Shown here piece by piece: positions 2,999-47,878 of a DNA stretch of 58,154 nucleotides; position 1 is the first letter of the stretch, and each line of letters begins with the position of its first letter. This stretch comes from a virus. The stretch spans positions 1 to 58,154 of the IMG/VR virus record IMGVR_UViG_3300046692_000249; one strand, written 5' to 3'. Below the pieces are notes generated by a model. The model saw only the letters and a list, made by a program, of their open reading frames with translations, was not told where the DNA came from and did no database searches. The translations under genes were made by a program, and so were the position numbers.

Positions 2999-3817
2999 TT
3001 GAAGTTCTATCCCGAGGATTACATCGTCGAGGTGGTCGTAAAGTTCACCGATCTCAACGGAGCAGCCGTCACCCCGACGGCTGTTTCTGCCGTTCTCTAT
3101 GATGGCAACGATACCGAGGTCGTGGATTTCGGCTCGCTGCCCTTTGATGCGTCCGAGGGACAGAAGTCGATCTCCATTCCGAAGGAGTTCAACCGGCTCG
3201 CAGACGGCGAGAACCGCGCGGCCCGCATTCTGCGTGTGGGCATTGAGACGGAGCAGGGCACTATCCCGCGCTCCTTCTCCTATGCGATCGAGTCCGACCA
3301 GCGCCTGGTGCTCCTGACCAATACCTTCGTCACTCTGGAAGCTGCCGAGTTCATGGCGCTCGACACGCCGAACGTTACCGGCTGGAATGTTGCAAGCGAC
3401 GACCAGAAGCTCGCGGCGCTGACCGAAGCCTATCGCCGGCTGACCCGAATCCCGATGAGGTTCCCGACCTACGCGCCGGGGACGGGGTTCGATTCCTTCA
3501 ACACGATCGCTCCGCGCGAGCTCCTTGAGGAGACGGTCATCGAGCGCGACATGTGGGACGATATCACCGGCGAGCAGTTCAACGATTTTCCGATCGCCTT
3601 CAAGAAGGCCGTGCGCCGCGCTCAGTTTGTCGAGGCAAACGAGCTGCTGCAGGGTGACAACGTCGCCAAGAAGCATCGCCAGGGTATCGTGACTGAAACC
3701 ATCGGCGAAAGTTCCGTGACGCTGCGCGACGGCCGCATCGATTACGGTATCGGCTCCGAGACGCTGAAGGCGCTGACCGGCTATATCTATTTCAACATGA
3801 GGATCCGGCGCGCTTGA
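2999..3817 (+). CDS. putative head-tail connector/adaptor protein
   Basis: 272 aa starting at TTG 2999, with AGGAG at 2986-2990 overlapping the end of the previous gene. Residues 1-105 form a beta domain; residues about 110-260 are helical and end in IGESSVTL plus a repeat-like tail, a pattern typical of head-tail connector (gp6/DnaT-like) proteins. The following gene starts inside its stop (TTGA). Position ahead of a HK97 gp10-like gene supports a neck role. The assignment is inferred from pattern and order. Confidence 0.5.
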   Translation: MKFYPEDYIVEVVVKFTDLNGAAVTPTAVSAVLYDGNDTEVVDFGSLPFDASEGQKSISIPKEFNRLADGENRAARILRVGIETEQGTIPRSFSYAIESDQRLVLLTNTFVTLEAAEFMALDTPNVTGWNVASDDQKLAALTEAYRRLTRIPMRFPTYAPGTGFDSFNTIAPRELLEETVIERDMWDDITGEQFNDFPIAFKKAVRRAQFVEANELLQGDNVAKKHRQGIVTETIGESSVTLRDGRIDYGIGSETLKALTGYIYFNMRIRRA

Positions 3818-25915: not shown

Positions 25916-27235
25916 GTGACTGAGACGGCACAGTTTGAGTTCGATCAGTCTTTCCAGACGAAGGTCGCGGCGCTGGTTATGCGCGACACGAACTTCGCCA
26001 TGAATACGAAGGATCTGATCAAGCCCGAATATTTCACCGAGGACGCAGCCGGCGCCCTTGTTCGCATCGTGCATGAGCATGTGAAGACCTATCGCTCAGT
26101 GCCCGACATGAAGATCCTGCCGACGATCTTGAAGGATGAGATCGCAGCCAAGCGCATTCGCTCGGACATGGTGGATCCGATCAAGAAGATGGTGCGCGAC
26201 GTGCTCACCACCGATCTGTCGAACCCGCAGTTCGTTCAGGACAAGGTGACGGACTTCGCCAAGCACCAGGCCGTCGAAGGCGCCATCATGCAGATCCTGC
26301 CGCTGCTCGAAAAGGGCAAGGATTGGGGCAAGATCGGCCAGCTGATGAAGGATGCCGTCTCGATCGGCTCGACCACCGACGGTGGCGACTACGACTTCTT
26401 CAACGAGATTGGCAACCGCACTAAGCAGCGCCACGACCTGAAGGCCGGCAAGGTCATCAGGAACGGCATCACGACCGGTTACCCGGCGATCGACGCCTAT
26501 CTCTATCACCTCGGATGGGGCCGCAAGGAACTGAGCTGCATGATGGGTGCAGCCAAGGCCGGCAAGTCGATGTCGCTTGGCGACTTCGGCAAGAACGCGG
26601 CGATGGCAGGCTTCAACGTCCTTTACGACAGCCTCGAAGTGTCCAAGGAAATCATTGCCGAGCGTATCGACGCCGCGATGTCCGATACCTTGATGCGCGA
26701 GCTGCACAAGGATCCTGACGCCGTCGAAGCTGCGATCAGGGCGATTGCTGCCAAGTCCGGCCACTTCAAGCTCCGTGACCATGCATCCGGCACCCTGAAG
26801 CCGTCTGCGCTGCATCGCGTCATCGAGAACTATCGCTCCGAAGGCATCATCTTCGACCTGGTGATTGTCGATTACGCCGACATAATGGCCGCGGAATATC
26901 GTTCCGACAATCTGATCGAGAACCTGCGCACCATCTATATCGACCTGCGCGCGCTCGCCCACGAGCTGAACTGCGCCTTCCTGACGGCCACGCAGACCAA
27001 CCGCGACGGCGCAAAGGCTGCAACGGCCAAGGCCACCGATGTTGGCGACGACTGGAACAAGGCTCGAACCGTCGACATCATGATCGGCATCAACGCGACC
27101 GACGCTGAGAAGGCTGCCGGCGAGGCGCGTCTCACCTGGCTACTGTCTCGTAACACCGAAGACGGCTTCAGCCTGCGCATCAAGCAGGACCGGGCAAAGA
27201 TGCAGTTCCTCAAGAAGGTGATCGGGAAGGAGTAA
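25916..27235 (+). CDS. DnaB-like replicative helicase
   Basis: 439 aa, GTG start with GGAG 9 nt upstream. Residues 1-140 form a helical N-terminal domain; the RecA-like motor has Walker A GAAKAGKS, Walker B LVIVDYADIM, the motif TATQTNRDGA and a C-terminal Arg-rich RIKQDRAKM. This is the hexameric helicase that unwinds the phage fork; the primase gene follows at once, as in T4 41/61 or T7 gp4 functions. Confidence 0.82.
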   Translation: MTETAQFEFDQSFQTKVAALVMRDTNFAMNTKDLIKPEYFTEDAAGALVRIVHEHVKTYRSVPDMKILPTILKDEIAAKRIRSDMVDPIKKMVRDVLTTDLSNPQFVQDKVTDFAKHQAVEGAIMQILPLLEKGKDWGKIGQLMKDAVSIGSTTDGGDYDFFNEIGNRTKQRHDLKAGKVIRNGITTGYPAIDAYLYHLGWGRKELSCMMGAAKAGKSMSLGDFGKNAAMAGFNVLYDSLEVSKEIIAERIDAAMSDTLMRELHKDPDAVEAAIRAIAAKSGHFKLRDHASGTLKPSALHRVIENYRSEGIIFDLVIVDYADIMAAEYRSDNLIENLRTIYIDLRALAHELNCAFLTATQTNRDGAKAATAKATDVGDDWNKARTVDIMIGINATDAEKAAGEARLTWLLSRNTEDGFSLRIKQDRAKMQFLKKVIGKE

Positions 27236-27236
27236 G

Positions 27237-28364
27237 ATGTCCAAGCTGTCCTTTGCACAGATCCAGGACGAGCTGGACATGGAGTTCTTCCTCGAGCGCG
27301 AAAGCATCTCCTTTCGCGAGACGCGCGGCACGTCCGGCCTTCAGCTGAACATCAAGACTTGCCCGAACCCGGCCTGCCGTGACGAACGTTGGCGCACCTA
27401 TTTCGGGATCGATAACGGGAAGGGCAACTGCTTCGTCTGCGGCCAGTCCTTCAACAAGGTCCATTTCGTCAACAACTATTTCGATTTTGGCGACAACTGG
27501 CGCGCCACCTTCCAGATGTGCGAGGAGATCCTGCGCGACCAGGGCTATCGCCCGAAGCGAAAGGCAATGGTGCGCGTTGAGCATGGCGACGTGACGCTTC
27601 CGGTATCCGATCCGCTGCCTCTGCCGGATGGTTCGAACCTGGCCTACCTCGAGCAGCGCGGCTTCGGCCCCGACATCTGCAAGTATTTCGAGCTGCGTTG
27701 GTGCCAGTTCGGCTGGTGGAAGTTCAAGGATCCTGACGGCAATACGCAGACGCAGAACTTTAGCGATCGCGTCATCATTCCGGTCTTCGACCTCGACGGC
27801 ACGCTCAAGACCTTCCAGGGCCGCGATCTGACCGGCGAGTCGGCAAAGAAGTATCTGTTCCCGATGGAACTGCCCGGAACCGGCCGTTACCTTCTGAACG
27901 GTCACAATGCCGTGGCGACTGACCATGTCTGCATGGGCGAGGGCGGTTTCGACGTGGCTGCGATCAAGCTCGCCTTCGATGAGGATTCGGAGCTACGCCA
28001 TATCGTGCCGATCGGCTCCTTCGGCAAGCATCTGTCCTATGGTGCGCCTGATGGTGACGATCAACTCGGTCGCTTCCTGAAGCTGAAGGCGAGGGGCATC
28101 ACGACCGTCACGATCATGTGGGACGGCGAAGTCAACGCGCTGCTCGCCGCGCTCGACGCCGCGAAGGTTCTGTCCGGTATCGGATTGAAGGTCCGTATCG
28201 CTTTATTGCCTTTCGAGAAGGATCCGAACGAAGTCACCGGCGACGTGACGCGCAAGGCTTTCTACGAGGCACAGCTCTGGACGCCGGCGCTCGATATCAG
28301 GTGGCGTCTACGCAACCCCTATGCAGAGGACGCCAAGAAGAAGGCCGCAGCTGCAAAGGAATAA
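27237..28364 (+). CDS. DnaG-like primase
   Basis: 375 aa, one base after the helicase stop. An N-terminal zinc-ribbon (CPNPAC ... CFVC), then a TOPRIM core with the acidic motif MGEGGFD near residue 233 and WDGE near 300. It would make RNA primers with the helicase. It is shorter than bacterial DnaG and lacks an obvious C-terminal helicase-binding domain; the Lys/Ala-rich tail may replace it. Confidence 0.8.
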   Translation: MSKLSFAQIQDELDMEFFLERESISFRETRGTSGLQLNIKTCPNPACRDERWRTYFGIDNGKGNCFVCGQSFNKVHFVNNYFDFGDNWRATFQMCEEILRDQGYRPKRKAMVRVEHGDVTLPVSDPLPLPDGSNLAYLEQRGFGPDICKYFELRWCQFGWWKFKDPDGNTQTQNFSDRVIIPVFDLDGTLKTFQGRDLTGESAKKYLFPMELPGTGRYLLNGHNAVATDHVCMGEGGFDVAAIKLAFDEDSELRHIVPIGSFGKHLSYGAPDGDDQLGRFLKLKARGITTVTIMWDGEVNALLAALDAAKVLSGIGLKVRIALLPFEKDPNEVTGDVTRKAFYEAQLWTPALDIRWRLRNPYAEDAKKKAAAAKE

Positions 28365-29569: not shown

Positions 29570-31099
29570 ATGGACGCATATGGAGTCGCGCGTCTGATCG
29601 AGGACATTGCGTCCACGTCGTCGCGCACGGATAAAGAGCGCCTGACGAAGACGCTTGCCGAGTCCGATATCGGCAAGTTCATTCTGACTTGGGCCTACAA
29701 CCCGTTCATCACCTTCGGCATCACGCCGGCTATTTCCGATAACGCCGGCAAGCTCGCCTTCGAGTTTAAGCCGAGCCTGGTCGAGCCGCTTCTGCAGCAG
29801 CTTTCGAGCCGCGAGCTCACTGGCATGGCAGCCGAGCGCGAGATTGGCGAGGTGATGGCAGCGCTCAACGAAGATGGGCAGCGTCTGCTCTTCCTGATCC
29901 TGTCCAAGGATCTGAAGTGCGGCATTGCCGCGAACACGATCAACCAGGCTATGCCTGGACTGATCCCGGTCTTCTCCGTTCAGCGCGCCGTCGCCTACGA
30001 GGCGAAACGCATGACCAAGGTCATGAAGGCCGAGTTCAAGCTCGACGGAAATCGCAACACCTTCCTGTCGAAGGACGGCAATGGCGGCTTCTTCTCGCGC
30101 ACCGGTAATCGCGTTGTGCCGCTCGACTTCCTGGTGCCGCACGTCATGAAAGCCGCAGCCTACGCCGCCCAGAAGGGCAGCGATGCGCTGAAGAAGGTGC
30201 TGCTCGGCGATCGCGTGGGCAGCATTTCGAGCCTCAACTTCATGCTCGACGGCGAAGCCATGATGACGCTGTTTGAGGAGACCGGCGCATTCCGGCGCAA
30301 GGAGGAAGACGCTATCGGCGCCGAGCTCCACCTCTACGACATGATGAGCTACGAGGACTTCGACGCGCCTGGCGCCGTCGGCGAGCCGCTCGAGGTTCGT
30401 CGTGTGTGGGTCGCGGAGTTCGTCAAGCTCGCCAAGGAAGCTCTCACCGGCACTGTAGGCGCCGAAGCCGTTCAGCTCGTGCCGCAGTTCTTCGTCAATA
30501 ACGATGCCGAGGTTCAGGCGCTGTTTGAGCGCGCTCGCTCGATGACGCTCGCCAAGTATCTCGCCCGCGGCAATGCCGAGCGTGAGAAGGAGCTGCTCGC
30601 CAAGACGATCGACAAGGCGACCGGCCAGCCGAAGGTTCTCGAAGGTATCGTCGTCAAGGATCCTGCTGCCCTCTACGAGAAGAAGAAGTCCGCGGCCTGG
30701 CAGAAGCTCAAGGCGGAAGAGACGCTCGATCTACCGATGATTGGCGTCTTCAACGGCCAGGAGCATTCCAAGTATGAAAACATCCTGGGCGGCGTCATCG
30801 TCGACCATAAGGGTGTCGAGGTCCGTGTCGGAGGAGGGATCTCCGATGAAGATCGCGCCTATCTCTGGACGCTCTGGGAGAAGGACGCAGCAATCATTGG
30901 CGTCGCTCCGAAGGTCGGTTTCAAGGGCGCAACCTTTGACTACGCCACGCTCAAGCGGCTTGGCGCGACCAATCTTCTCACCCGGCTTCTCGAAACCGAG
31001 TTCATGGAAGTGACGCCGGATGGATCACTCCGTCACCCGCGCGCCATTCGCTTCCGTGACGACAAGGATGGCGAAGTTGAATCCAGGGAAGCCGCGTGA
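29570..31099 (+). CDS. ATP-dependent DNA ligase
   Basis: 509 aa. The adenylation motif KLDGNR is present, with Lys157 as the probable AMP-accepting residue, and the later motif EGIVVKDP and KLKAEETLDL complete the nucleotidyl-transferase core. It would seal Okazaki nicks and recombination intermediates. An N-terminal helical domain (about 150 aa) resembles T4/T7-type phage ligases. Next to the WGR gene. Confidence 0.82.
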   Translation: MDAYGVARLIEDIASTSSRTDKERLTKTLAESDIGKFILTWAYNPFITFGITPAISDNAGKLAFEFKPSLVEPLLQQLSSRELTGMAAEREIGEVMAALNEDGQRLLFLILSKDLKCGIAANTINQAMPGLIPVFSVQRAVAYEAKRMTKVMKAEFKLDGNRNTFLSKDGNGGFFSRTGNRVVPLDFLVPHVMKAAAYAAQKGSDALKKVLLGDRVGSISSLNFMLDGEAMMTLFEETGAFRRKEEDAIGAELHLYDMMSYEDFDAPGAVGEPLEVRRVWVAEFVKLAKEALTGTVGAEAVQLVPQFFVNNDAEVQALFERARSMTLAKYLARGNAEREKELLAKTIDKATGQPKVLEGIVVKDPAALYEKKKSAAWQKLKAEETLDLPMIGVFNGQEHSKYENILGGVIVDHKGVEVRVGGGISDEDRAYLWTLWEKDAAIIGVAPKVGFKGATFDYATLKRLGATNLLTRLLETEFMEVTPDGSLRHPRAIRFRDDKDGEVESREAA

Positions 31100-31774: not shown

Positions 31775-31976
31775 GAAGGCCGAACTAACAGATGAAGCAC
31801 GACGACTGATCGAAACTATCCTCATCGATTCCAGATCCGAGGACTTCTCGACCCGGCAGGAGGCGCGGTTTGCGATCATAAAGGTGCAGATCTTATATGG
31901 CCGTGAAGCGTTGGAGGTGGTCGAGGAAGAGCTGGCAACTCGATTTGGCGAAATGCAAGCCGGCGTCTGGGGCTAA
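31767..31976 (+). CDS. small hypothetical protein
   Basis: 69 aa, overlapping the previous gene by 8 nt. A single amphipathic helical protein, acidic and without cysteine. Its TAA overlaps the stop of the convergent repC gene (CTAA at 31973-31976). No family recognised. Confidence 0.55.
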   Translation: MREKAELTDEARRLIETILIDSRSEDFSTRQEARFAIIKVQILYGREALEVVEEELATRFGEMQAGVWG

Positions 31977-33079
31977 CGTTTGAGTAATCGTCGGACCTCC
32001 TGCGTGAGGTCAACCTGTCCGGACTTGATAAGCCGGACCAGCGCGCGGAAATAACCGCCCGCATTCTTGATCGGTTCGGCCCCTGGCGTGGGCCGCGCCT
32101 GCAGCTGGATCACGTAGACCAAGGTCGCAGCCGCCCCGAGCAGCCCGATTTCGCGGCCAGCTTCCTCCCAGGCCGACGGCGACACGCCAAACGCGCCCCG
32201 CATCCTGCCGACGCCTAATATAAACTCCCGATCATTTCGCACCTGCCCAATAAACTCCATTGCGTCCGGGCACGCCCTAACCAGGTCATCTACGGTCGCA
32301 ATCGGCCGCTCCGGCTCCCTCACATCTTCAGAGCCATTGTTACAAGACTGGTCAGGGGCATATTTGTTGTTGTCTTTGTGACGGCAAGAATTGCCGGCAG
32401 AGGCGGCGTAATATCTGCCTTCTGCCTCCATACGGAGCTGATGCCAGGCATCACGGGCGCTGTCGGCCGATCCCGTCGCCGATCGCCGCGGCGTGACTCG
32501 TGAAAGCTCCAGAGCGCGCGCCGTCAGATCGGTGATGTCAGAGTCCGGATAGACCTCGGCAAGCGTCCTGAGAGCTTCCTGGGCTGATCTGCGATGAATG
32601 GTCAGCTCGTCAAAGGCCAGCGCCCGCTCGCGCTCGCGCTCCTGGATCGCAGCCAGGCGCTCATTCAGCTCCGGCAGCTTCTCGAGGAGAGGGGAGAGGT
32701 CGAAGCCATAGGCTCGGATGATCTGGCCTTGCGCCGATCGCTGGGCGAACCGCTTGCCGTTGGCGCTGTCCTTGGCGACGATTAGACCTTCCTCAATGAG
32801 CCTCGCGAGCGAGTAGCGCACCGAACGCTCCGGAATGCCGGTTCTTTCCACAAGAAACTCGTTAGAAGGCCATACGAGGATCCTGTTTTCGATGAGTTCG
32901 CCGCGATAGCAGCCGACGAGTTGGTCCAATACGAAACGGGCGCTGCTTGGCAGCTGCAGCACCTTTGCCGCGATTCGAGCGGCGTCGAAGAGTTCTTGCT
33001 TGTCCGCGGAGTCCTGCTCTCGCGCCGATGGCAGTGTCGGCTTGAGAGCACGCCAACCGGACGGTTGTGCGCTGGTCAT
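31973..33079 (-). CDS. repC: RepC-like plasmid replication initiator
   Basis: 368 aa on the minus strand; ATG complement at 33077-33079, with GAGGGA upstream. It closely follows the RepC plan: an N-terminal winged-helix region (about residues 25-195) with LVWPSNEFLVERTGI and KDSANGKRFAQR, then a variable A+T-rich linker, then the C-terminal domain (about 260-368) with GVSPSAWEEA and NAGGYFRALVR, all matching motifs of repABC-family initiators. In plasmids, RepC binds an origin inside its own gene. No repA or repB neighbours are present. Homology is strong; its use by this phage is inferred. Confidence 0.88.
   Translation of the reverse strand: MTSAQPSGWRALKPTLPSAREQDSADKQELFDAARIAAKVLQLPSSARFVLDQLVGCYRGELIENRILVWPSNEFLVERTGIPERSVRYSLARLIEEGLIVAKDSANGKRFAQRSAQGQIIRAYGFDLSPLLEKLPELNERLAAIQERERERALAFDELTIHRRSAQEALRTLAEVYPDSDITDLTARALELSRVTPRRSATGSADSARDAWHQLRMEAEGRYYAASAGNSCRHKDNNKYAPDQSCNNGSEDVREPERPIATVDDLVRACPDAMEFIGQVRNDREFILGVGRMRGAFGVSPSAWEEAGREIGLLGAAATLVYVIQLQARPTPGAEPIKNAGGYFRALVRLIKSGQVDLTQEVRRLLKR
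32330..32400. other. A+T-rich segment inside repC (candidate oriV)
   Basis: Within repC, the stretch encoding the inter-domain linker is clearly richer in A+T than the flanking coding DNA. RepC origins in repABC plasmids lie in such an A+T-rich patch in the middle of repC. Only position and composition support this here. Confidence 0.4.
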
Positions 33080-33128
33080 GATCCCTCATTTCCGGGTCAA
33101 AGCTTCGCCGCCCGACTCGAAAAGTCGG

Positions 33129-33157
33129 TTGACAAATCAGCGGTGATTCGGGATAAC
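33129..33157 (+). promoter_or_regulatory. sigma70-like promoter for the antisense RNA
   Basis: TTGACA (33129-33134), 17-nt spacer, GATAAC (33152-33157). It points away from repC and into the 33.2 kb terminator, with no gene in between. Confidence 0.7.
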
Positions 33158-33163
33158 CAAGAT

Positions 33164-33264
33164 GCTAATGGCTTGGTTTACGGTGACCCGACGGTCTAAT
33201 TGATCCCGAACTCCTTGCTTCTATTAAAGGCTCTGGGCTGGCAGGCTCGGAGCCTTTTGCTTTT
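33164..33264 (+). ncRNA. putative countertranscribed RNA opposite the repC leader
   Basis: About 100 nt between a sigma70-like promoter and an intrinsic terminator, with no credible reading frame, transcribed divergently from and antisense to the repC 5' leader. In repABC plasmids, a small antisense RNA (ctRNA, IncA, RepE) in exactly this position limits RepC synthesis. Same layout here; I cannot compare sequence with known ctRNAs. Confidence 0.6.
33226..33262 (+). terminator. terminator of the antisense RNA
   Basis: AAAGGCTC (33226-33233) pairs with GAGCCTTT (33250-33257), followed by TGCTTTTT. It would also lie just downstream of the minus-strand RHH gene but has a better U tract on the plus strand. 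Confidence 0.7.
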
Positions 33265-33267
33265 TCC

Positions 33268-33462
33268 CTAGTTTCTATCCTCAATTAAGCGGTGAACGGC
33301 ATCCGTAACGGCTTCAGACCGATTACGGTAAGCGCCGGACTTGATCAGCCGGTCGAGTTGCTCGGTCAGACGACCTTCCATCCACAAAAGCACTTGCTTT
33401 TCGCCGTTGGATTCTTTCTTGACGCGATACTTCTTCGCTGGCGTGATGTCCTGGATGCCCAT
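33268..33462 (-). CDS. ribbon-helix-helix transcription regulator
   Basis: 64 aa, minus strand. Residues about 22-62 fit the CopG/Arc-type RHH fold: a beta strand (KQVLLWM), then two helices (LTEQLDRLI and NRSEAVTDAVHRLIE). The N-terminal 20 residues are basic and could touch DNA. RHH dimers bind short repeated sites. It lies upstream of repC on the same strand and downstream of a regulatory gap, so it may control repC or the phage-wide dyads. Confidence 0.7.
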   Translation of the reverse strand: MGIQDITPAKKYRVKKESNGEKQVLLWMEGRLTEQLDRLIKSGAYRNRSEAVTDAVHRLIEDRN

Positions 33463-33745: not shown

Positions 33746-33805
33746 GTGAAAGCGTCAGAGCGAGAATGCAACGTAACAGAGCCGCACCATCCAGGGGATA
33801 ATAAA

Positions 33806-34198
33806 ATGGCTAAGGAAAAAGGAACACCCACGAGGTTTTCCAACTACATATTTAAGAAGCTGATGGAGTCGACGAAGTCTCAGAAAGAGATCGCCGAGGA
33901 AGCCGGTTACTCCAATCCGAACATGATCACAATGCTGAAACTTGGTCATGTTAAGCTGGCGCTCGATCGTGTGCCGGCAATGGCGAAAGCCTTGAACGTC
34001 GATCCTCTCGACCTGTTCAAGATCGCTCTGACCCAATTTTATGACGAACAAGCCGTCAGATTTCTGACCGAGATCATCGAAGGCGGTATCTCGCCTTCCG
34101 AGAAGAAGATCCTCCAGATCGTTCGGGACGCCAGCGGAAACGACACACCGCAGCTCACACCGGAGCGGGCAAAGCAGCTCGCCGAGATCTTCAAGTAA
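33806..34198 (+). CDS. XRE-like helix-turn-helix regulator
   Basis: 130 aa from ATG 33806, with AGGGG 8 nt upstream. A helix-turn-helix near residues 20-65 (KSQKEIAEEAGYSNPNMITML, LDRVPAMAKALNVDP) followed by a helical C-terminal half suited to dimerisation. XRE proteins bind palindromes as dimers with half-sites about one helical turn apart, exactly the 11-bp centre-to-centre distance of the phage dyads. It is the best candidate for the phage repressor; binding is inferred. Confidence 0.7.
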   Translation: MAKEKGTPTRFSNYIFKKLMESTKSQKEIAEEAGYSNPNMITMLKLGHVKLALDRVPAMAKALNVDPLDLFKIALTQFYDEQAVRFLTEIIEGGISPSEKKILQIVRDASGNDTPQLTPERAKQLAEIFK

Positions 34199-34585: not shown

Positions 34586-36919
34586 ATGAACCGCGATATC
34601 ATGGAGCTGCGCGAGGTCGTCCAGAAACTCGTTCCTCTGCTCGCTGGCAAGGGGCTCGTTGTGACGCAGCGCGGCTCCCAGGCTTACGTGCGGACCAACA
34701 CCACGACGAAGCAGCCCGAAGAGGTCAACATCCCGAACATCCCGGACAATGCGTCCCAGGAGTTCGTCTGGGCGATCCAGGGTTTCATCGACCACGAAGT
34801 CGGCCACATCCTGCACACCGACTGGCTCTGGTATGGTGGCAAGGGTGGCGTATCGGAAGCCGACCTGCGCAGTCCGGCAAAGCGCGCCTTCATGAACACC
34901 CACAATATCGTGGAAGACGTGATGATCGAGCGGGAAATGGCGAAAACCTTTCCTGGCGCCCGGCGCAACATCTCCAACACCCGCAAGTGGTTCCTGGCGA
35001 AGATCACCGACGAGGCGCTCAAGGGCGTCAAGGATCCTCGCGAGCAGTTCAACTACCTGATCGTTCCGGCCATGCGCGCCCTCGGTGATCACGAGGAAAT
35101 GCAGGAGTGGATGGATAAGGGCAGCTGGTGGAAGAACAAGTATGTCGCCGAGCTCCTCAAGACGATGAAGCCGGCAACCCTCGACCTCCTCAAGACCTGC
35201 ACGACGACCAAGGAAACGCTGGTCATCGCCGAAGAGCTCCATGCGATCATCATGGGCAAGGTCGCACCCCCTGCCCCTCCGAAGCCGCCTGAAAAGAAAA
35301 AGGAAGACAAGAAGGACAAGGGCAAGTCGAAGGACAAGCCCGAGAAGGAGGCTGGCGAAGGCGAAGGTGACGGCGAGCGCGATCACAAGGAGCCGGAAAA
35401 GAAGGAAGAGGACAAGAAGCCCTCCGACGACGGCAAGGGGAAGAAGGACGATGAAGACGATAAGGGCGAAGGCGCCGGCGACGACGAAGACGCCGAAGCG
35501 GAAGCAGATGAGCCCGACGCTGGCGATGATGACGGCGATGAAGACGCTGAGCCCGAAGAAGACGCCGGCGACGACGAGGACGATCCTGCTGCCGATGAAG
35601 CTGATGGCGAAGACGCTGACGATGATGACGATGAGCCTGCGTCCGGCGCATCAGATGATGACGGTGAGGATGAGTCCGAGGCTTCCGGATCGGCTGCGGC
35701 CGACGAAGATGACGGTGAAGACGATGAACCGGCAGGTGCTGGTTCTGGTGGCGCCGGTGGAGCCGACGAGGACGGCGAAGGCTTTGAAGGATTCGACGAA
35801 GATGCACCGGGCGGCCCGCAGATCATTACGGCCGGCGCCGACGGTGGTGGAGTAGGCGACCCCGACGACGAGACTGAGGACGAAACTCAGGGCGGCGGAG
35901 GCGGTGTCGGCAACAGTATGTCCAAGTCCCTCTTCGACTTTGAGGACGGTGATTTCAACGAGGTCGACATGTCGGCGCAGATCGCCATCAAGATCTCCGA
36001 GGAAGCCGTCCTTGCGATGGATCCGAAGCAGTATCTCGTCTACACCCGCGACCTTGATCGCATCGAGCCTGTGGTGCCGCCCGAGGACATGAAGAAGACC
36101 TGGGTGCCGTCTCTCGAGGAAGACACCCGGCAGATGACCTCGAAGATGCGCAAGGATATCGAGCGTATGATGGCATCGCAGTCGCACGTCATCCGCACGC
36201 CTGGTCATCGAAACGGCAAGCTTCATGCGCCGTCGCTCTTCCGCGTGCCGCAGGGTGATCCTCGCGTCTTCACGCAGAAGCAGGAGCATGTGTCGAAGGA
36301 TACGGCTGTCGAACTGGTGATCGACAATTCCGGCTCGATGAGTGGCGCGAAGATGAAGCTTGCCATGACGGCCGGCTATGCGCTCTGCACCACGCTCGAT
36401 GCGGTCAAGATCGCCCACGAGGTCATCGGCTTTACGACCGGTGGCTGGCATCACCTGCCCCACACGATCCGGCAGGCGATCACCGACGATCTGCACAAGT
36501 CCTCAATCCAGTGGGACCGCGTTGGCCCGCTGGTGCTGCCGATCTACAAGACCTTCGAGGAACGCATCACCGCGACCGTCAAGGCGCGTTTTGCCTATAT
36601 GCGCGAGGCGCAGGCCGGCATCTCCGGCAACGTCGACGGCGAGTCCCTCGAATACTGCGCCGAACGTCTGCTCAAGCGCCCTGAAAAGCGCAAGGTGATG
36701 ATGGTTCTGTCTGACGGTCAGCCGGCCGGCTCCCACAAGGCAGGGCCGCATCTGTCCCATGTCGTCAAGCAGCTTAGCAAGATGGGAATCGAATGCATCG
36801 GCATCGGTATCCAGGATGACAGCGTGAAGCGCTACTATCCGAAGTTCACGGTCCTGCATAATGCCGCGGACCTCCCCGGCCAGGTGATGGGCGAAATCAA
36901 GCGCATCCTGTTGTCCTGA
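34586..36919 (+). CDS. CobT-like vWA protein with HEVGH motif
   Basis: 777 aa. Residues 60-130 hold a metalloprotease-like HEVGH (His70, His74) followed by NTHNIVEDVMIE, the N-terminal layout of vWA-like metallopeptidases. Residues about 228-445 are an extreme Asp/Glu/Lys low-complexity region. The C-terminal vWA domain has a complete MIDAS: Asp580-x-Ser582-x-Ser584, and later Asp in SDGQPAG. This architecture matches cobaltochelatase CobT and its phage relatives; the AAA+ partner (CobS/MoxR-like) is next. As no cobalamin genes are near, a role in remodelling a phage or host complex is more likely. Confidence 0.75.
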   Translation: MNRDIMELREVVQKLVPLLAGKGLVVTQRGSQAYVRTNTTTKQPEEVNIPNIPDNASQEFVWAIQGFIDHEVGHILHTDWLWYGGKGGVSEADLRSPAKRAFMNTHNIVEDVMIEREMAKTFPGARRNISNTRKWFLAKITDEALKGVKDPREQFNYLIVPAMRALGDHEEMQEWMDKGSWWKNKYVAELLKTMKPATLDLLKTCTTTKETLVIAEELHAIIMGKVAPPAPPKPPEKKKEDKKDKGKSKDKPEKEAGEGEGDGERDHKEPEKKEEDKKPSDDGKGKKDDEDDKGEGAGDDEDAEAEADEPDAGDDDGDEDAEPEEDAGDDEDDPAADEADGEDADDDDDEPASGASDDDGEDESEASGSAAADEDDGEDDEPAGAGSGGAGGADEDGEGFEGFDEDAPGGPQIITAGADGGGVGDPDDETEDETQGGGGGVGNSMSKSLFDFEDGDFNEVDMSAQIAIKISEEAVLAMDPKQYLVYTRDLDRIEPVVPPEDMKKTWVPSLEEDTRQMTSKMRKDIERMMASQSHVIRTPGHRNGKLHAPSLFRVPQGDPRVFTQKQEHVSKDTAVELVIDNSGSMSGAKMKLAMTAGYALCTTLDAVKIAHEVIGFTTGGWHHLPHTIRQAITDDLHKSSIQWDRVGPLVLPIYKTFEERITATVKARFAYMREAQAGISGNVDGESLEYCAERLLKRPEKRKVMMVLSDGQPAGSHKAGPHLSHVVKQLSKMGIECIGIGIQDDSVKRYYPKFTVLHNAADLPGQVMGEIKRILLS

Positions 36920-36953
36920 AAAAAAAGTAAGCGGGAGCTTAATATTCCCGCTT
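36919..36953 (-). terminator. minus-strand terminator after the vWA gene
   Basis: AAGCGGGA (36929-36936) pairs with TCCCGCTT (36946-36953). The 8-A run before it (36919-36926) is a U tract only on the minus strand, so it would stop antisense transcription although no minus-strand gene lies to its right. Confidence 0.55.
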
Positions 36954-36970
36954 GCATGCCATCGCAAAAC

Positions 36971-36988
36971 TAAGTAATGACTTACTTA
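36971..36988. promoter_or_regulatory. operator-like dyad, copy 13
   Basis: TAAGTAA-TGAC-TTACTTA, perfect arms, 39 nt before the AAA+ gene. Confidence 0.8.
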
Positions 36989-37027
36989 TAGCGCAACGCG
37001 AAAGCGCTTTTCACAAGAGGGTTAAAC

Positions 37028-39528: not shown

Positions 39529-42500
39529 ATGCATTCGGTTCTCGCAGCGCGGACTGACTTCTCAGTCGGCGAAAGCATCCTCACGACCAAGCGTCTGATC
39601 AAGAACGCCGTCGATGTCGGTGCAAAGGCCGTCGCCATGACCGACACTATGTCGATCACCGGCATGATCGATTTCACCAATAAGGCGAAGGCTGAAAAGC
39701 TGAAGCCGATTATCGGTGTTCGCCTGCGCCTGGTCGACAATCCGACCTGGCGTCCGGGCAAGGACGAAAAGAAGAAAGATATGCCGCGCGCATACTTCCT
39801 GACGCTCTATGCGCTCAAGGAAGCCGGCATGAAGGGTATCTTCCGGCTGCTGACGCTCGCCAATTCCGATGACCGCTTCTACTACGAGTCCAAGCTCGGC
39901 TTCGAGGATCTCTATGCGGAGTTGAGAGGTCTCTCAGCGAACGATGTGGCGATTGTTCTTGGTGATGCCCACTCAGTTCTGGAGCATCCGAGCGCCAACG
40001 ATATCGTGGATAAGCTGAATACGCTTGTCGCTCACCTTTATGCGCCGCTGATTCCGATCGACACGCCCTACTACGGCCGCCTGAACAATCTGGCACTATC
40101 ACAGGTTGTCGATAACGCGGTTCGCCCGATCGTCGTGCGTCCGGCATTCTACGGTCAGGGCGAAGCCGACACTCAGGAAATCATGACGGCGATCTCCGAG
40201 AACCATAAGGTGACGGATGGCTGGTTCAGGTCGCGGCACAATCGCGACATGCACGTCATGGGCGCGCCCGAGCTCGTCGGCGAAATGAAGAAGGCCGTCG
40301 CCCATCTGGTCAAGCGCGGGAATGATCCGACGTTCGTCGCGGCTCAGTTCAAGAGGGGCCTTATCGCTACGGCTGAGCTGGTCGACGCCGTCGAATACGA
40401 ATGGAAGAAGGCCGAGGTCTCGCTGCCGGTCATGGCACCGAATGAATTCGCCGCAGTCGTGGAAGAGTGTAAGAAGGGCTGGAAGACGCGCTTCGACAAG
40501 CCGATCTTCGGGCATCAGCCCGACGCGAAGGAGCTGGTCGAGGTCTACAAGCCCCGCCTCGCCTATGAGCTTGAGACGCTGAAGCGGTTGAACTTCTCGG
40601 GCTACTTCCTGCTCGTGCAGGACGTGGTCCAGTTCGCCAAGAGCAGCGGCATCATGGTTGGCCCTGGTCGTGGTTCCGTGGGCGGATCCCTCGTCGCGTA
40701 TCTGATGGGCATTACCGAGTGCGATCCGATCCGCTTCGGCCTGCTCTTCGAACGCTTCATCAACCCTGAGCGTATCGACTTGCCCGACGCTGACCTCGAC
40801 TTCATGTCCGAGCGCCGGCACGAGGTCTTCGAATATCTGACCAAGAAGTATGGCGAGGCGCGCGTCGCTGGCGTCAACAACTATGGCACGCTCGGCTCTG
40901 CGTCTGCGATCCGCGATGTCGGCCGCGTCACCAATATTCCTGAAAAGGACTATTCCGTTTCGAAGTATGTGCCGAAGCTGCACGGCCAGAACGTGCCGCT
41001 GCCGGAAGGCCGTAAGCAGGTCGCGGAAATCGATGCCTTCGCGCTGAACTATCCGACCCACTGGGGTATTATGGAGCGCCTCGAAGGCACCATCCGCAAC
41101 TTCAGCCAGCACGCAGGCGGCGTCATCGTCGGCGGGGTCGATATTGTCGATCGCGCCGTTATTGAGCGGCGCAAGGACGGCAACGTCGTCTGTTGGGACA
41201 AGCGCATCGTTGAAGACCAGGGCCTCGTCAAGATGGACGTTCTCGGACTCAACACGCTCGATCTTATGACGCTGGCGCTCGACTATATCCGCGAGAACTC
41301 GGGCAAGCGCCTCGATTTGAACCGCATTCCCCTCAATGACGAGAAGGTGCTGGCGAACTTCGCCAAGGCTCACACGACCGCCATCTTCCAGTTCGAGTCA
41401 GGCGGTATGCGCCGGCTGCTGAAGGAGCTCGGCCGCGACGGCTCGATCACCTTCGACGATATCACCGCGGCGACCGCGCTCTACCGTCCTGGTCCGATGG
41501 AATCGGGCATGATGGACTCGTTTTACAAGCGCAAGCAGGGCGACGAGGACATCGAATACGATCATCCGCTGATGGAGCCGGTGCTCGAGGAAACCTTCGG
41601 CGTCATCGTCTACCAGGAGCAGGTCATGAAGATCTCCCAGGTGATCGCCGGCTACTCGGGCGCGGCTGCTGACAAGCTCCGCAAGATCATGGGCAAGAAG
41701 CTGCCGGAGGAGATGAAGAAGGAGCGGAAGAAGTTCTGCGACGGCTGCGTCGCCACGATCAGCTGCACCGAGGAATGGGCAGGCGCGCTGTTCGACAAGA
41801 TCGAAGGCTTCGCCGGCTACGGCTTCAACAAGTCGCACTCGGTCGAATACACGCTGATCTCCTACCAGGCGATGTATCTGAAGACCTACCACGCTGCCGA
41901 GTTCTATGCGGCCGCGCTGACGGTGCAGAAGGAAGAAAAGCTCACCGGTATCATCCGTGACGCAAGGATGCTCGGTATCGAGGTCTCGATGCCCGATATC
42001 AACATCTCGACCGACCGCTTTGAAATGGCGACTTCGGTGCGCCTGGTCATGCCGCTGCAGAGGATCAAGGGGCTGTCAGAGAAGGCGACCAACGCCGTCC
42101 TCGAGGCCCGCAAGGCAGGTGGACCCTTTAAGGACAAGAACGACTTCCTGTCCCGCGTGGAGAAGCGCGTCTGCAACAAGCGCGTCCAGGAGGCGCTGGA
42201 GCTCGTCGGTGCGTTTGCGCGCATCGAGCCTGGCTCTGTCCCGGCCAATGACCCGAGCCGCATCAAGGACCAGATCGAGCTGTTGCCGGGCCTCATCGCC
42301 AGCCACGTCCCTATCGACCACGAGCTGAACAGGGACAACGACACGAAGATCGCGCTTGGCGAAGTCGTGGACGACTACCGTCGTGCGCACGGCCCGACCT
42401 CGGGCTCTGTCGACGGTTATCCGGTCAAGCCGTTCTTCGGTAGGAGCGCCGATTTCATGATCATCGCGGACGCGCCTGGCAACGAGGAAGACACGGGCGG

Positions 42501-42897
42501 TATCATGGGCTTCTCGATGTCGAATAACGCGGTCGTGGAAGCGATCGAAGCGGCAAGCCTCGATAGGTCGAACGCCTACTGGACCGCGCTCATCAAGCGC
42601 CCGAAGCGCGGCAAGCAGGTAGGTCCGGACGAGATCGCCATGTATTGGCCCTACCTCGAGCGGGAAATCGACCTGCTCAAGCCGCCCGTCATCGTGCTGC
42701 TCGGCTCGCAGACCGTTCGCCACTTCATCCCGGACTTCAAGGGTAAGGCATCCGACGCGGCCGGCAAGGTGATCTATTCGAAGAAGTATGACGCCAACAT
42801 CGTGATCGGCTTCTCGCCCGGCGAAATCTACCACGACCCGGACAAGCAGCAGAACATGAACGAGGTGTTCGGCGCCGTTGCGGATTGCCTCGCATGA
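39529..42897 (+). CDS. dnaE: DNA polymerase III alpha fused to a UDG-like domain
   Basis: 1122 aa (GAGGATAA upstream). A C-family polymerase: N-terminal PHP domain, palm with LPDADLDF (Asp420, Asp422, Asp424), fingers, and an HhH segment near 870-900. The PHP domain lacks the usual metal ligands: the HxH pair and the His of TDH are replaced (LAARTDFS, TDTMSITG). From about residue 940 the OB fold and C terminus of bacterial DnaE are replaced by a uracil-DNA-glycosylase-superfamily domain (IADAPGNEED, NAYWTALIKRP, VLLGSQTVRHF), but the family-4 cluster cysteines and HPS motif are absent. So a phage replicase, probably not proofreading through PHP, with a UDG-like module of uncertain activity. 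Confidence 0.85.
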   Translation: MHSVLAARTDFSVGESILTTKRLIKNAVDVGAKAVAMTDTMSITGMIDFTNKAKAEKLKPIIGVRLRLVDNPTWRPGKDEKKKDMPRAYFLTLYALKEAGMKGIFRLLTLANSDDRFYYESKLGFEDLYAELRGLSANDVAIVLGDAHSVLEHPSANDIVDKLNTLVAHLYAPLIPIDTPYYGRLNNLALSQVVDNAVRPIVVRPAFYGQGEADTQEIMTAISENHKVTDGWFRSRHNRDMHVMGAPELVGEMKKAVAHLVKRGNDPTFVAAQFKRGLIATAELVDAVEYEWKKAEVSLPVMAPNEFAAVVEECKKGWKTRFDKPIFGHQPDAKELVEVYKPRLAYELETLKRLNFSGYFLLVQDVVQFAKSSGIMVGPGRGSVGGSLVAYLMGITECDPIRFGLLFERFINPERIDLPDADLDFMSERRHEVFEYLTKKYGEARVAGVNNYGTLGSASAIRDVGRVTNIPEKDYSVSKYVPKLHGQNVPLPEGRKQVAEIDAFALNYPTHWGIMERLEGTIRNFSQHAGGVIVGGVDIVDRAVIERRKDGNVVCWDKRIVEDQGLVKMDVLGLNTLDLMTLALDYIRENSGKRLDLNRIPLNDEKVLANFAKAHTTAIFQFESGGMRRLLKELGRDGSITFDDITAATALYRPGPMESGMMDSFYKRKQGDEDIEYDHPLMEPVLEETFGVIVYQEQVMKISQVIAGYSGAAADKLRKIMGKKLPEEMKKERKKFCDGCVATISCTEEWAGALFDKIEGFAGYGFNKSHSVEYTLISYQAMYLKTYHAAEFYAAALTVQKEEKLTGIIRDARMLGIEVSMPDINISTDRFEMATSVRLVMPLQRIKGLSEKATNAVLEARKAGGPFKDKNDFLSRVEKRVCNKRVQEALELVGAFARIEPGSVPANDPSRIKDQIELLPGLIASHVPIDHELNRDNDTKIALGEVVDDYRRAHGPTSGSVDGYPVKPFFGRSADFMIIADAPGNEEDTGGIMGFSMSNNAVVEAIEAASLDRSNAYWTALIKRPKRGKQVGPDEIAMYWPYLEREIDLLKPPVIVLLGSQTVRHFIPDFKGKASDAAGKVIYSKKYDANIVIGFSPGEIYHDPDKQQNMNEVFGAVADCLA

Positions 42898-44576: not shown

Positions 44577-45650
44577 ATGGCGCTTAACCCCGAACTGAAG
44601 AAGATGGTCTCCGCTGCCAAGAACAAGTATTCTGGCGGAAGCGGCAAGACCGTAAAGCCCAAGGACGGTCGCAACACCTACCGTATCCTGGCCCCGACCT
44701 CCGCCCAGGCTCCCTGGGTTCCGGCTTCCGGCCAGTATTGGGCCGATCTCGGCGTTCACTGGATCAAGGCAGACAAGAACGGCAAGCCGCTCGTCGTCGT
44801 TGGCGACTGCGACACCGTTTACCAGCAGCCTTCGCCGCTGAATACGGCGATCGAAATGGCAATCGCCTCGGCAATGGATGAGGACTCGAAGGAGCTCTAC
44901 AACGAGTGGAAGGCCAAGAAGTCGGTTCTCCTCTGCGCTGTCGATTTCTCGGGCAACCTCGACGAAGTTGTTCCGCTCGAACTGACCGGCACGACCTTCG
45001 GTAAGGTCGCGGATCTCATCAACGTCTACGACGACGCTGGTAAGGACATCACCGACCCGCTGACCGGCGTCAACATCATCATCACGAAGACCGGCAAGGG
45101 TCTGAATACCAAGTATGACGTGATGGTCGATCCGGCGCCTGCCAAGCCGCTCAGCGCCGACATTCTGACCCGCACTCCGGACCTGCACGCCTTCATCGCG
45201 CAGAACTTCTTCCGCGGTGAGGAACAGAAGGCGCTGAACTGCATCGCACAGATCGCAGGCATCGCTGTTCCGGCGCTGACTGGTCCGTCTGGCCCGGCTG
45301 GTGTTCGCACCCCGACTGCAGCACTCGCCTCCTCGGCCGCTTCGGTCGCCGGCGCGAGCGTCGACAACTCCGCGGCTATCGCTGCTGAAGCCGCCCGCAA
45401 GGCAGCTGCAGAACAGGCTGCCGCGGCACAGGCCGCAGCCGCTGCCCAGCAGGCAGCACCGGTCGAAGATCCGCTCGCTGCAAAGCGCGCAGAGATCCTG
45501 CGTCGCCAGCAGGAAGCAGAGGCTGAGCTTGCCGCTCTGTCCGCTGAACCGGCACCGGCTGCCGCAGCCGCAACGCCGGCCGCTGGCATCTCCTCGCTGC
45601 CTGTTTCCGAACAGGACGCGATCCTCGCTGAACTCGATAACCTCGTGTGA
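44577..45650 (+). CDS. gp32-like ssDNA-binding protein
   Basis: 357 aa, AAGGA upstream. Residues 1-210 resemble T4 gp32-type SSB of phages: N-terminal basic YSGGSGKTVKPKDGRNTYRIL, then the OB-fold core ending NTKYDVMVDP. Residues 240-340 are an Ala-rich linker, and the C terminus (AILAELDNLV) is acidic and hydrophobic, as used for protein docking. It would coat the single strands made by helicase, FEN and SbcCD, and it lies in a cluster with flap nuclease and RecA. Confidence 0.78.
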   Translation: MALNPELKKMVSAAKNKYSGGSGKTVKPKDGRNTYRILAPTSAQAPWVPASGQYWADLGVHWIKADKNGKPLVVVGDCDTVYQQPSPLNTAIEMAIASAMDEDSKELYNEWKAKKSVLLCAVDFSGNLDEVVPLELTGTTFGKVADLINVYDDAGKDITDPLTGVNIIITKTGKGLNTKYDVMVDPAPAKPLSADILTRTPDLHAFIAQNFFRGEEQKALNCIAQIAGIAVPALTGPSGPAGVRTPTAALASSAASVAGASVDNSAAIAAEAARKAAAEQAAAAQAAAAAQQAAPVEDPLAAKRAEILRRQQEAEAELAALSAEPAPAAAAATPAAGISSLPVSEQDAILAELDNLV

Positions 45651-45659
45651 AGCTCCCCG

Positions 45660-45710
45660 CCAGGCAGTCTCCCCTCCCCTGCCTGGTCGCCTCATCGTCG
45701 CGGATGAGGC
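45660..45710 (+). other. two tandem hairpins after SSB
   Basis: CCAGGCAG/CTGCCTGG (45660-45686) and GCCTCATC/GATGAGGC (45689-45710), both perfect 8-bp stems, followed at once by a terminator-type hairpin. They may stabilise the SSB mRNA end. Confidence 0.7.
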
Positions 45711-45713
45711 TTA

Positions 45714-45757
45714 GCGACGACGCCGATCCCTGCCCCGGCGTCGTCGCCTTTCCTTTT
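45714..45757 (+). terminator. intrinsic terminator after SSB
   Basis: 12-bp perfect stem (45714-45725 with 45736-45747), 10-nt loop, then CTTTCCTTTT. Third of three hairpins in 100 nt. Confidence 0.75.
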
Positions 45758-45768
45758 GAGAGGCTTTC

Positions 45769-46722
45769 ATGTCCAAGAATTACATGCTGATCGACGGCAA
45801 CTCGCTCGGTCACTTCTACAACAACGCCAAGCCGCTCCATATCGGCGAAGTCCAGGTGCAAGCCATTTTCGGCTTCCTGAAGGGTCTGCGCGAGCAGATC
45901 GCCATGTTTCAGAATTATCAGCCGGTCGTCCTCTGGGATGGCGCGTCGTGGCGCAAGCTCATGTTCGCTGCCTACAAGGACAACCGCGAGAAGCGCGAAA
46001 CCAAGAACGAGATCAAGGTCCAGGACCAGAAGGACGCCTACAAGAAGCAGCAGCCTTATATTCGCAAGGCGCTGCGCTTCCTCGGCGTGCCCCAGGTTAT
46101 AGCGCTCAACATGGAAGCCGACGATCTCGGTGCGATCCTGACCGACCGCTACACCAAGAACGGCGCCAACATCATCCTCCTCACCGGCGACAAGGATTGG
46201 CTGCAGCTCGTCGGCCCCGGCGTCGTCTGGCGCGACTTCGCAAATCAGCGCCTGGTCACGCAGAAGGACTTCAAGGAATTCACCGGCGTCGACACGATCC
46301 GGCAGTTCGTCGAGGTCAAGGCGCTCGCCGGTGATATGGGCGACAACGTCGCTGGTGTCGGTGGTATCGGCCAGAAGGGCGCTGTCGATTTCATCAATCA
46401 GTATGGGTCGGTCTCGGCATTCACCAATGCCTGCATCCTCGAAAAGAGCATCGATGTCGCAAAGCTGCCCAAGAAGTATCGGGCGCTTGTCGATGACGAG
46501 GACAAGGCCATCACGTTTTCCCGCAACATCGATCTCATGGATCTTCGGACAACGGCGCGTCCCGCGCCCCAGGCGCTCGAGGTCGATAAGGGCGATCCCA
46601 GCAAGGAGAAGTTCCAGCAGTTCTGTGAGCTCCTCCTCTTCAAGTCGATCCTGAAGGATTTCGACAGCTGGATCTCCGTCTTCCCGGCTTTCCGTGAGCT
46701 GCCGCAGGCGCTTGCAGCCTAA
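45769..46722 (+). CDS. 5'-3' exonuclease / flap endonuclease
   Basis: 317 aa. PIN/FEN fold: N-terminal LIDGNSLGH (acidic metal site), MEADDLGAIL and GDKDWLQL metal clusters, then a helix-hairpin-helix GDNVAGVGGIGQKG. This matches T4 RNase H and T5 exonuclease. It would remove RNA primers and flaps; RecA and SSB are its neighbours. Confidence 0.85.
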   Translation: MSKNYMLIDGNSLGHFYNNAKPLHIGEVQVQAIFGFLKGLREQIAMFQNYQPVVLWDGASWRKLMFAAYKDNREKRETKNEIKVQDQKDAYKKQQPYIRKALRFLGVPQVIALNMEADDLGAILTDRYTKNGANIILLTGDKDWLQLVGPGVVWRDFANQRLVTQKDFKEFTGVDTIRQFVEVKALAGDMGDNVAGVGGIGQKGAVDFINQYGSVSAFTNACILEKSIDVAKLPKKYRALVDDEDKAITFSRNIDLMDLRTTARPAPQALEVDKGDPSKEKFQQFCELLLFKSILKDFDSWISVFPAFRELPQALAA

Positions 46723-46741
46723 TCAACACGAAGGAGTAAAT

Positions 46742-47878
46742 ATGAGCAGTCCTGCAGATATCATGAAGGCTCTGACCGGCGTCATTGGGGCAAACGATCC
46801 CGAAGCGACCGTCACCGCCTATCTGGACAGCGGCTTCCCGCCGCTGAATAACGCATCGAGCTCCGATTGGGATGATTGCTTCCCGGTCGGGCGCGTGATC
46901 GAAGTCGCCGGCCCGCCGTCATCCGGTAAGACCGCGATCGCGACGAAGGCAATGGCAGCGGCCCAGGCTTTGGGTGGCGTTGCAGCGTTCCTCGACTACG
47001 AGCGCTCCTTCTCGCTGAAGCTGGCGCCGAACCTCGGCCTCGATACCACGCCCGGCCGGTTCGTCTACAAGAAGCCGGAAACCTTCGAAGACGGCGTTGC
47101 GATGTTCCACCTGATGGTGGAAACCATTCGCGAAAAGAAGCTCATTAAGGCTGATGCGCCGATCTGCGTCGTCTTCGACAGTCTCGCGGCCATGACGCCG
47201 CAGTCGACGCTCTACGACTCCAAGGGCAAGCGTCGTGCTCCGGGCGACCGCAACATGAACGACAACACGGCGCTCGCCCGCGCGACCTCGAACCACTTCG
47301 CCGGCATCGCCCAGATCGCCGAGAAGTATAACGTCTGCGTCATCTTCCTGAACCAGATGCGCACCAAGATCGGCGTCATGTTCGGCGATCCGCGCAAGAC
47401 GACGGGCGGCGACACGCCTGAATTCTACTTCTCGCAGCGCCTCTGGCTCACCTCGAGCAAGATCGTGGACGAGAAGACGAAGGAAGTCATCGGCATGGAA
47501 GTGTCCGGTATCTTCATGAAGAACAAGGTTTCACGGCCGTTCGTGAAGTCCAAGTGGCGCTTCATGTTCCAGGCCGACGGCACCGGGCGTTTTGACCGTG
47601 AACGTTCGCTGGTCGAATTCCTCAACGAGCGCAAGCTCCTGATCGATATCGATCCGGCGACCGGCAAGGAGACCAAGAAGGGCTACTTCATGTGGGAAGG
47701 CAAGCAGTTGACCCGTGAAGGCATCGCGCGCGCCGTCGAGGCCGAAGGCGATGTCGGCTTCAACAAGCTGAAGGCTTTGCTGCCGGCCAAGTATGTCGCA
47801 CCGGTCGTCGCCGAGGCTGAGCTCGATGAGGTTGCCGCGACCGTCGGTGATGTCGAAGATTCTGCGGTCGCGGCTTAA
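46742..47878 (+). CDS. RecA/UvsX-like recombinase
   Basis: 378 aa from ATG 46742 (AAGGAG upstream). Walker A GPPSSGKT (Lys63), Walker B VVFDSLAAM, and the RecA motif LNQMRTKIGVMFG with the GG...T pattern. It would drive strand exchange and recombination-dependent replication. The C terminus is acidic, as in UvsX. Confidence 0.85.
   Translation: MSSPADIMKALTGVIGANDPEATVTAYLDSGFPPLNNASSSDWDDCFPVGRVIEVAGPPSSGKTAIATKAMAAAQALGGVAAFLDYERSFSLKLAPNLGLDTTPGRFVYKKPETFEDGVAMFHLMVETIREKKLIKADAPICVVFDSLAAMTPQSTLYDSKGKRRAPGDRNMNDNTALARATSNHFAGIAQIAEKYNVCVIFLNQMRTKIGVMFGDPRKTTGGDTPEFYFSQRLWLTSSKIVDEKTKEVIGMEVSGIFMKNKVSRPFVKSKWRFMFQADGTGRFDRERSLVEFLNERKLLIDIDPATGKETKKGYFMWEGKQLTREGIARAVEAEGDVGFNKLKALLPAKYVAPVVAEAELDEVAATVGDVEDSAVAA

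Follow-up and report, generated by a model that had tools for sequence, protein, structure and literature searches.

Why should a phage that encodes its own replication machinery also carry an initiator of the plasmid type? The question is raised by a 58,154-nucleotide stretch of viral DNA (the window), in which a repC gene known from repABC plasmids is surrounded by phage genes. In our judgement, and with a probability of about 0.85, this locus serves a temperate SSU5-like phage-plasmid of rhizobia as its plasmid replicon. An operon of repC and a ribbon-helix-helix (RHH) gene, transcribed against the direction of the phage genes, would make RepC, which would bind an origin in its own coding sequence (32324-32407) and start theta replication of the circular prophage. 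A counter-transcribed antisense RNA (ctRNA) would pair with the repC leader, shut repC off and hold the copy number low, as in repABC plasmids, and the RHH protein would probably repress transcription in the manner of CopG of pMV158. The copies would be segregated by a ParA/ParG-like pair encoded separately in another part of the genome, and the phage helicase, primase and polymerase would serve lytic replication.

RepC and its phage surroundings

As a fragment, the window covers 48% of the genome of an SSU5-like siphophage of Rhizobium (B1VFA/V1VFA-S/RHph_X66). Its counterpart in the 122-kb genome of Rhizobium phage B1VFA, positions 60,086-118,949, is colinear with it and mostly 91-96% identical; V1VFA-S and RHph_X66 are as close as B1VFA, and RepC is 96% identical in all three. 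The RepC proteins of RHEph10, RHph_N1_10 and RHph_Y2_11 are about 70% identical to that of the window. Virion-side genes (tail, lysis), the phage replisome and the RepC module are found on one element, and its relatives are plaque-forming phages. The genes concerned are the following:

25916..28364, plus strand: phage DnaB-like helicase (25916-27235) and primase (27237-28364)
29570..31099, plus strand: ATP-dependent DNA ligase, backbone gene bordering the replicon slot on the left (Pfam/PHROG)
31973..33079, minus strand: repC, replication initiator of 368 aa, with an N-terminal winged-helix domain (RP-C), a C-terminal RP-C_C domain and a predicted disordered linker between them
33268..33462, minus strand: predicted RHH protein of 64 aa, upstream of the ctRNA and repC and on the strand of repC
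33806..34198, plus strand: Cro/CI-type HTH regulator, divergent from RHH-repC (Pfam HTH_3, 2.3e-6; same place in relatives)
34586..36919, plus strand: CobT-like VWA protein, backbone gene bordering the replicon slot on the right (Pfam/PHROG)
39529..42897, plus strand: phage DNA polymerase III alpha subunit (DnaE), with relatives in SSU5, nickie and Acinetobacter phage-plasmids
44577..47878, plus strand: SSB (44577-45650), 5'-3' exonuclease (45769-46722) and UvsX/RecA-like recombinase (46694-47878)

The initial annotation had recognised the 368-aa protein as a RepC with both domains, and this holds. The gene starts with ATG, the Pfam families RP-C and RP-C_C match residues 23-172 (E=2.3e-39) and 263-363 (E=1.9e-13), both above the curated cut-offs, and the phage RepC family phrog_22671 ("replication protein") matches with E=1.3e-98. 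The span originally given for the locus, up to 33264, takes in the repC leader, which proved important. The AlphaFold model of RepC has a pLDDT of 82, with residues 231-259 below 50 and thus predicted to be disordered. Foldseek returned DnaD as the best match of this model (probability 1.00, E 1.8e-3 to 0.05), the likeness being in the winged-helix part; this resemblance fits a helicase-loading initiator but proves nothing. A scan of a genome collection with RepC patterns, which catch close relatives only, found a single locus.

The phage surroundings were described correctly as well. Ligase, CobT/CobS-like genes and a sigma factor flank repC, and the phage's own replisome in the window consists of DnaB-type helicase, primase, Pol III alpha, ligase, SSB, exonuclease and UvsX/RecA-like recombinase. 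The gene order helicase-primase-ligase-CobT-CobS-DnaE and the DnaE similarity are common to the SSU5-like phage-plasmid community. DnaE is 38% identical to that of SSU5 and 42-44% identical to those of phages nickie and ANB28 and of Acinetobacter phage-plasmids, and by its sequence the polymerase ties the backbone of the window to the SSU5-like phage-plasmids. The CobT/CobS-like genes (34586-38323) are a fixed pair beside DnaE throughout the phage-plasmid group; a role in cobalamin synthesis has been considered doubtful because CobN is missing (PMC4447125).

The content of the interval between ligase and cobT differs between the members of this community. Phage nickie has one small gene and 98 bp there and no initiator, SSU5 has small genes and a tRNA with its RepA elsewhere in the genome, one Acinetobacter phage-plasmid has parA, a gene annotated as an integrase and an HTH gene on the opposite strand, and the rhizobial phages have repC-RHH and the HTH gene. 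Judged by gene order, this interval is a site where plasmid functions plug into a shared phage backbone. One slot that is empty in nickie and differently filled in Acinetobacter points to a phage lineage that swaps its plasmid module with the host group.

The HTH gene in the slot has its ATG start at 33806 as in B1VFA, while the longest open reading frame begins with GTG at 33746, and its product is a candidate lysogeny repressor. A 16-bp palindrome, AAGTAA-N4-TTACTT (consensus AAGTAAGNNCTTACTT), is dispersed over the window, with 14 exact copies compared to none in 100 shuffled sequences:

45, 6218, 6268, 7947, 12971, 22204, 24142, 25882, 34549, 36972, 44149, 49450, 55082, 58112: exact copies
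28363, 33672, 34274, 53973: weaker copies

Most copies are located directly upstream of plus-strand genes, and only a weak copy is near repC. There are about 40 in the whole B1VFA genome and some in SSU5, and none were found in the 41 kb of RHEph10 examined. By analogy to the operators of P1 C1 or the L5 stoperators, the palindromes look like dispersed operators of a master repressor. The Acinetobacter phage-plasmid (L074) has a palindrome of its own, AGTCAG-N2-CTGACT at 3309, 13187, 20659, 27126 and 31580, and its HTH protein differs as well, a hint of co-variation between operator and regulator.

The putative origin and its control elements

Seven elements within and upstream of repC make up the remainder of the proposed replicon:

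32324..32407, unstranded: putative oriV core, repC codons 225-252 with nearly frozen synonymous sites, including a 71-nt core (32337-32407)
32382..32396, unstranded: CGGCAA-TTC-TTGCCG, a perfect dyad of the oriV core and a candidate for the site that RepC binds
33112..33128, minus strand: S-element-like hairpin of the repC leader, preceding the Shine-Dalgarno sequence and adjoining the ctRNA -35 box (from folding and alignment, covariation not counted)
33129..33157, plus strand: ctRNA promoter TTGACA-17-GATAAC, with TTGAC invariant in 29 of 29 distinct loci
33135..33148, unstranded: AATCA-N4-TGATT, an inverted repeat lying between -35 and -10 of the ctRNA promoter and a candidate for its operator
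33164..33265, plus strand: predicted ctRNA of about 95-100 nt, antisense to the repC leader (covariance model)
33226..33257, plus strand: intrinsic terminator of the ctRNA with a 14-bp stem (pairing across 29 loci)

In p42d, RepC is sufficient for replication and oriV lies within repC (PMC3155836). For the window, the linker-coding stretch had been described as A+T-rich and as the place of RepC origins in plasmids. The A+T peak itself is weakly true, the best 150 bp having 47% against 38% gene-wide, but it does not stand out against codon shuffles (p=0.43), and canonical repABC repC genes reach 59-61% A+T in their best stretch. The near-freeze of synonymous sites is stronger evidence for an origin. 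Synonymous identity over codons 225-252 is 0.93 versus 0.575 gene-wide in 18 homologues (permutation p=2e-4), and the freeze recurs when 10 non-redundant homologues (0.94) or six distant ones from phages (0.93 versus 0.45) are compared. The linker is predicted to be disordered in the protein yet is frozen in the DNA, as an overlapping origin predicts, and this stretch is best read as the putative origin. Of the positions of the 71-nt core, Rhizobium phages conserve 60-71, distant rhizobial relatives 47-57, and Methylobacterium and Microvirga plasmids 43-49; in canonical repABC and pRmeGR4a repC the core is at chance level (32-35 of 71). Mapping of the origin by GC skew, as had been proposed, did not point to this locus: the skew of the 122-kb B1VFA genome is monotonic without a turn at repC. 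No convincing direct repeats or iterons were found around repC.

The RHH gene and repC are separated by 188 bp, and the antisense strand of this leader carries the ctRNA gene. In its terminator, pairing is found for 96.8% of the 404 stem cells of the 29 loci, compared to 84.0% in shuffled alignments and 63-67% after a slide by one column. Two-sided changes occur at 11 of the 14 pairs, with 66 double-change cells against 14.3 in the shuffles. Counted by hand, the stem has about 66 G-U/U-G cells versus one A-C cell on the antisense strand. On the strand of the repC mRNA these G-U cells would be A-C mismatches, so it is as a structure of the antisense strand that the hairpin has been maintained by selection.

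Antisense ctRNAs control repC-family plasmids (PMC10194956), and an antisense RNA against the repC leader, a mark of a repC family replicon, is predicted here from sequence. A covariance model was derived solely from nine distant loci, all outside the clade of the window, and searched against 378 kb. It has a single match in the window, 33129-33269 on the plus strand (E=5.8e-5). The same model finds the ctRNAs of canonical repABC loci, in L038 with E=2e-4 at the position of Rfam RF00489 and in L039 and L059 at about 5e-3, and gives a weaker match in pRmeGR4a repC. No Rfam family matched the ctRNA of the window. RF00489 (ctRNA_p42d) matches the repABC loci L038 and L039 and misses the window as well as L002, L024, L008 and L034. 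Therefore, the phage ctRNA is related to the repABC ctRNAs, which are known from experiment, but lies outside their Rfam family.

The AATCA-N4-TGATT repeat is conserved in most loci of the Rhizobium clade and has its sole copy in the window within the ctRNA promoter. In two copies of the cassette on nif plasmids (L024 and L029, both 11831-11950) the terminator is preserved, but the promoter spacer is one base short within this repeat and the -10 box has changed. In folding models the Shine-Dalgarno sequence of repC is at least slightly more open with the ctRNA-covered part of the leader present in 24 of 24 loci (mean 0.36 versus 0.24, many of the differences being tiny), which only suggests that a leader without bound ctRNA leaves this sequence better exposed.

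The 64-aa gene in front of the ctRNA is kept in place across phages, phage-plasmids and captured cassettes. Pfam RHH_1 scores below its cut-off on the protein, and the assignment to the RHH fold therefore rests on the AlphaFold model (pLDDT 88.6), which has the helix pattern of this fold. The best PDB folds for the model are RHH (ParD/PrpA with probability 0.96, NikR with 0.89), at E-values of 0.7-1.2. By analogy to CopG of pMV158, the protein is probably a transcriptional repressor of repC. RHH gene, antisense RNA gene and repC follow each other in this order and form a self-contained module without RepAB. A literature search on the RHH gene with repC, on RepC in phage-plasmids and on dispersed operators in SSU5-like phages found no prior description, most subscription journals lying outside its coverage.

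The orientation of repC opposite to its phage neighbours could also be that of a recently acquired, non-functional passenger gene. This is highly improbable given that repC is kept in every close relative examined and that both the synonymous-site constraint and the covarying antisense terminator extend over deep divergence. What had been annotated as a phage with RepC becomes a defined, testable replicon, with the putative origin placed to about 85 bp, the brake RNA almost to the base, and a small candidate repressor.

Probable plasmid state and transfer to symbiosis plasmids

That RepC might keep the genome as a plasmid was one of three roles considered at the outset, and it is well supported by circular plasmid forms, a ParA/ParG-like pair, the lack of an integrase, and the conserved ctRNA and putative origin. 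The circular forms, of 116-119 kb, belong to relatives and not to the window record itself: Rhizobium beringeri pRlX6 (119 kb, 93%), Sinorhizobium pLM21S1 (118 kb, 80%), and, more distant, plasmids of 116-118 kb from Shinella, Pararhizobium and two Methylobacterium. A tyrosine integrase (PF00589) was found in none of nine related records. The window itself has a complete plasmid replication switch, consisting of an initiator gene that harbours the putative origin, a small brake RNA and a small repressor-like protein, which makes a lasting plasmid state in the host very probable. In pRlX6, repC is split (L025, 5751-6897), the N-terminal part being 98% and the C-terminal part 67% identical. Because cobT and dnaE are split there too, sequencing indels are likely behind this, with recombination in the linker being possible.

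The statement that repA and repB are absent stands for repB, as PF07506 is absent from all seven phage or phage-plasmid records of the lineage. In these records repC is not preceded by an operon of RepA and RepB, and the RHH gene occupies that place. The statement does not extend to partition, because the rest of the genome carries a ParA/ParG-like pair; absence of repAB is thus not absence of partition. A ParA of 213-215 aa is present in eight of eight related records tested, these genes lying outside the window, and in related records is followed by an overlapping gene of 84-92 aa. The Pararhizobium copy of the small gene has a Pfam ParG match of 3.5e-4, just under the cut-off, and the B1VFA copy has no Pfam match. 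By sequence, the two genes look like a type Ib partition pair. In B1VFA (L049, 45850-46757) the gene that follows and overlaps ParA encodes 87 aa and has ParG-like relatives. The published parB of this phage, a ParB-domain protein about 4 kb from parA, is probably not the partner of ParA and may be misnamed.

A second role considered for RepC was the firing of the first replication rounds. RepC might only start lytic replication, opening a phage origin in repC and handing over to the phage replisome without a stable plasmid. The free phages B1VFA, RHEph10 and RHph_X66 keep repC intact, and the RepC model resembles the helicase-loading protein DnaD, both of which would agree with this. However, it is hard to reconcile with the circular forms in sequenced hosts and the ParA/ParG-like genes, a copy-number ctRNA would be useless to a purely lytic phage, and nickie has the same replisome without an initiator between ligase and cobT. 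We regard a purely lytic role as unlikely and favour the plasmid replicon.

The presence of RepC and the phage-plasmid idea are already in print for this lineage. In 2015, pLM21S1 and RHEph10 were presented as archetypes of plasmid-like prophages forming a new group (PMC4447125), and mitomycin C failed to induce pLM21S1 (PMC4447125); B1VFA and V1VFA-S were proposed to be phage-plasmid-like in 2025 on the basis of parA, parB and repC (PMC12509600). New here are the make-up of the replicon, the kinship of its ctRNA to the repABC ctRNAs, the mapped candidate origin, and the transfer from phage to symbiosis plasmid.

A phylogeny of RepC had been suggested as a check. In a tree of 41 rows phage-type RepC is split from canonical repABC RepC with full support. 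Within the phage clade, the RepC proteins of three R. leguminosarum/R. beringeri nif plasmids are placed beside those of two phage contigs, L008 and L010; one of these plasmids (L024) and L008 have identical ctRNA terminator hairpins. The phage CobT-like gene is absent from all three nif plasmids. Therefore, a phage replicon has moved to symbiosis plasmids together with the RHH gene and the ctRNA but unaccompanied by phage genes, a clear case of gene flow from phage to plasmid. Canonical repABC is present besides the captured cassette in two of the three plasmids. In Methylobacterium, phage-plasmid and large-plasmid RepC are intermixed in the tree.

The third role, interference, would make the cassette a device by which phage RepC or ctRNA disrupts repABC plasmids already resident in the host. 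Among repABC plasmids both RepC and ctRNA act as determinants of incompatibility (PMC3155836, PMC10194956) and the phage ctRNA is recognisably related to theirs, but with the phage RepC only 29-33% identical to the canonical proteins, the origin core at chance level and the ctRNA outside the RF00489 family found in canonical repABC, such action is very unlikely. What is conserved is, moreover, a complete self-replicon. A narrower target is plausible, namely the same cassette captured on R. leguminosarum nif plasmids. Conversely, the captured RHH-ctRNA-repC cassette might confer immunity based on incompatibility, if the resident ctRNA and RHH protein repressed repC of an incoming phage-plasmid and blocked prophage establishment; we consider this rather doubtful. 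The captured cassette makes phage-plasmid incompatibility in rhizobia directly testable.

Comparison with known replicons and phage-plasmids

The plasmid replicon proposed here has its closest counterparts in B1VFA, V1VFA-S and RHph_X66, which share the colinear genome and the same RHH-repC locus; the ctRNA, the RHH gene and the putative in-gene origin are unmentioned in the paper on B1VFA and V1VFA-S (PMC12509600). pLM21S1 and RHEph10 belong to the same family but are more distant (RepC 78% and 69% identical, respectively). The SSU5-like and Acinetobacter AB phage-plasmids have the backbone of DnaE, helicase, primase, ligase and CobT/CobS-like genes in the order of the window, with a DnaE identity of 38-42%. 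SSU5 differs in using a RepA, placed elsewhere.

Among plasmids, the repC family replicons without repAB (pRmeGR4a, pSmeLPU88b repC2) combine RepC with antisense RNA control, as does the window. A tblastn search with the phage RepC at 1e-8 did not recover the RepC of pRmeGR4a, and no RHH gene was seen ahead of that repC. The repABC plasmids (p42d, Ti) resemble the window in RepC, in a ctRNA between the upstream gene and repC, and in an origin inside repC, putative in the window, but they have RepA and RepB, whereas the module of the window has the RHH gene upstream instead and a separate putative origin and RepC clade. The copG-rnaII-repB region of pMV158 presents a small RHH repressor, an antisense RNA and an initiator in the same order as the module of the window (PMC4485353). 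Its initiator is of the rolling-circle type and unrelated to RepC (PMC4485353), so that the likeness is one of analogy and not of kinship.
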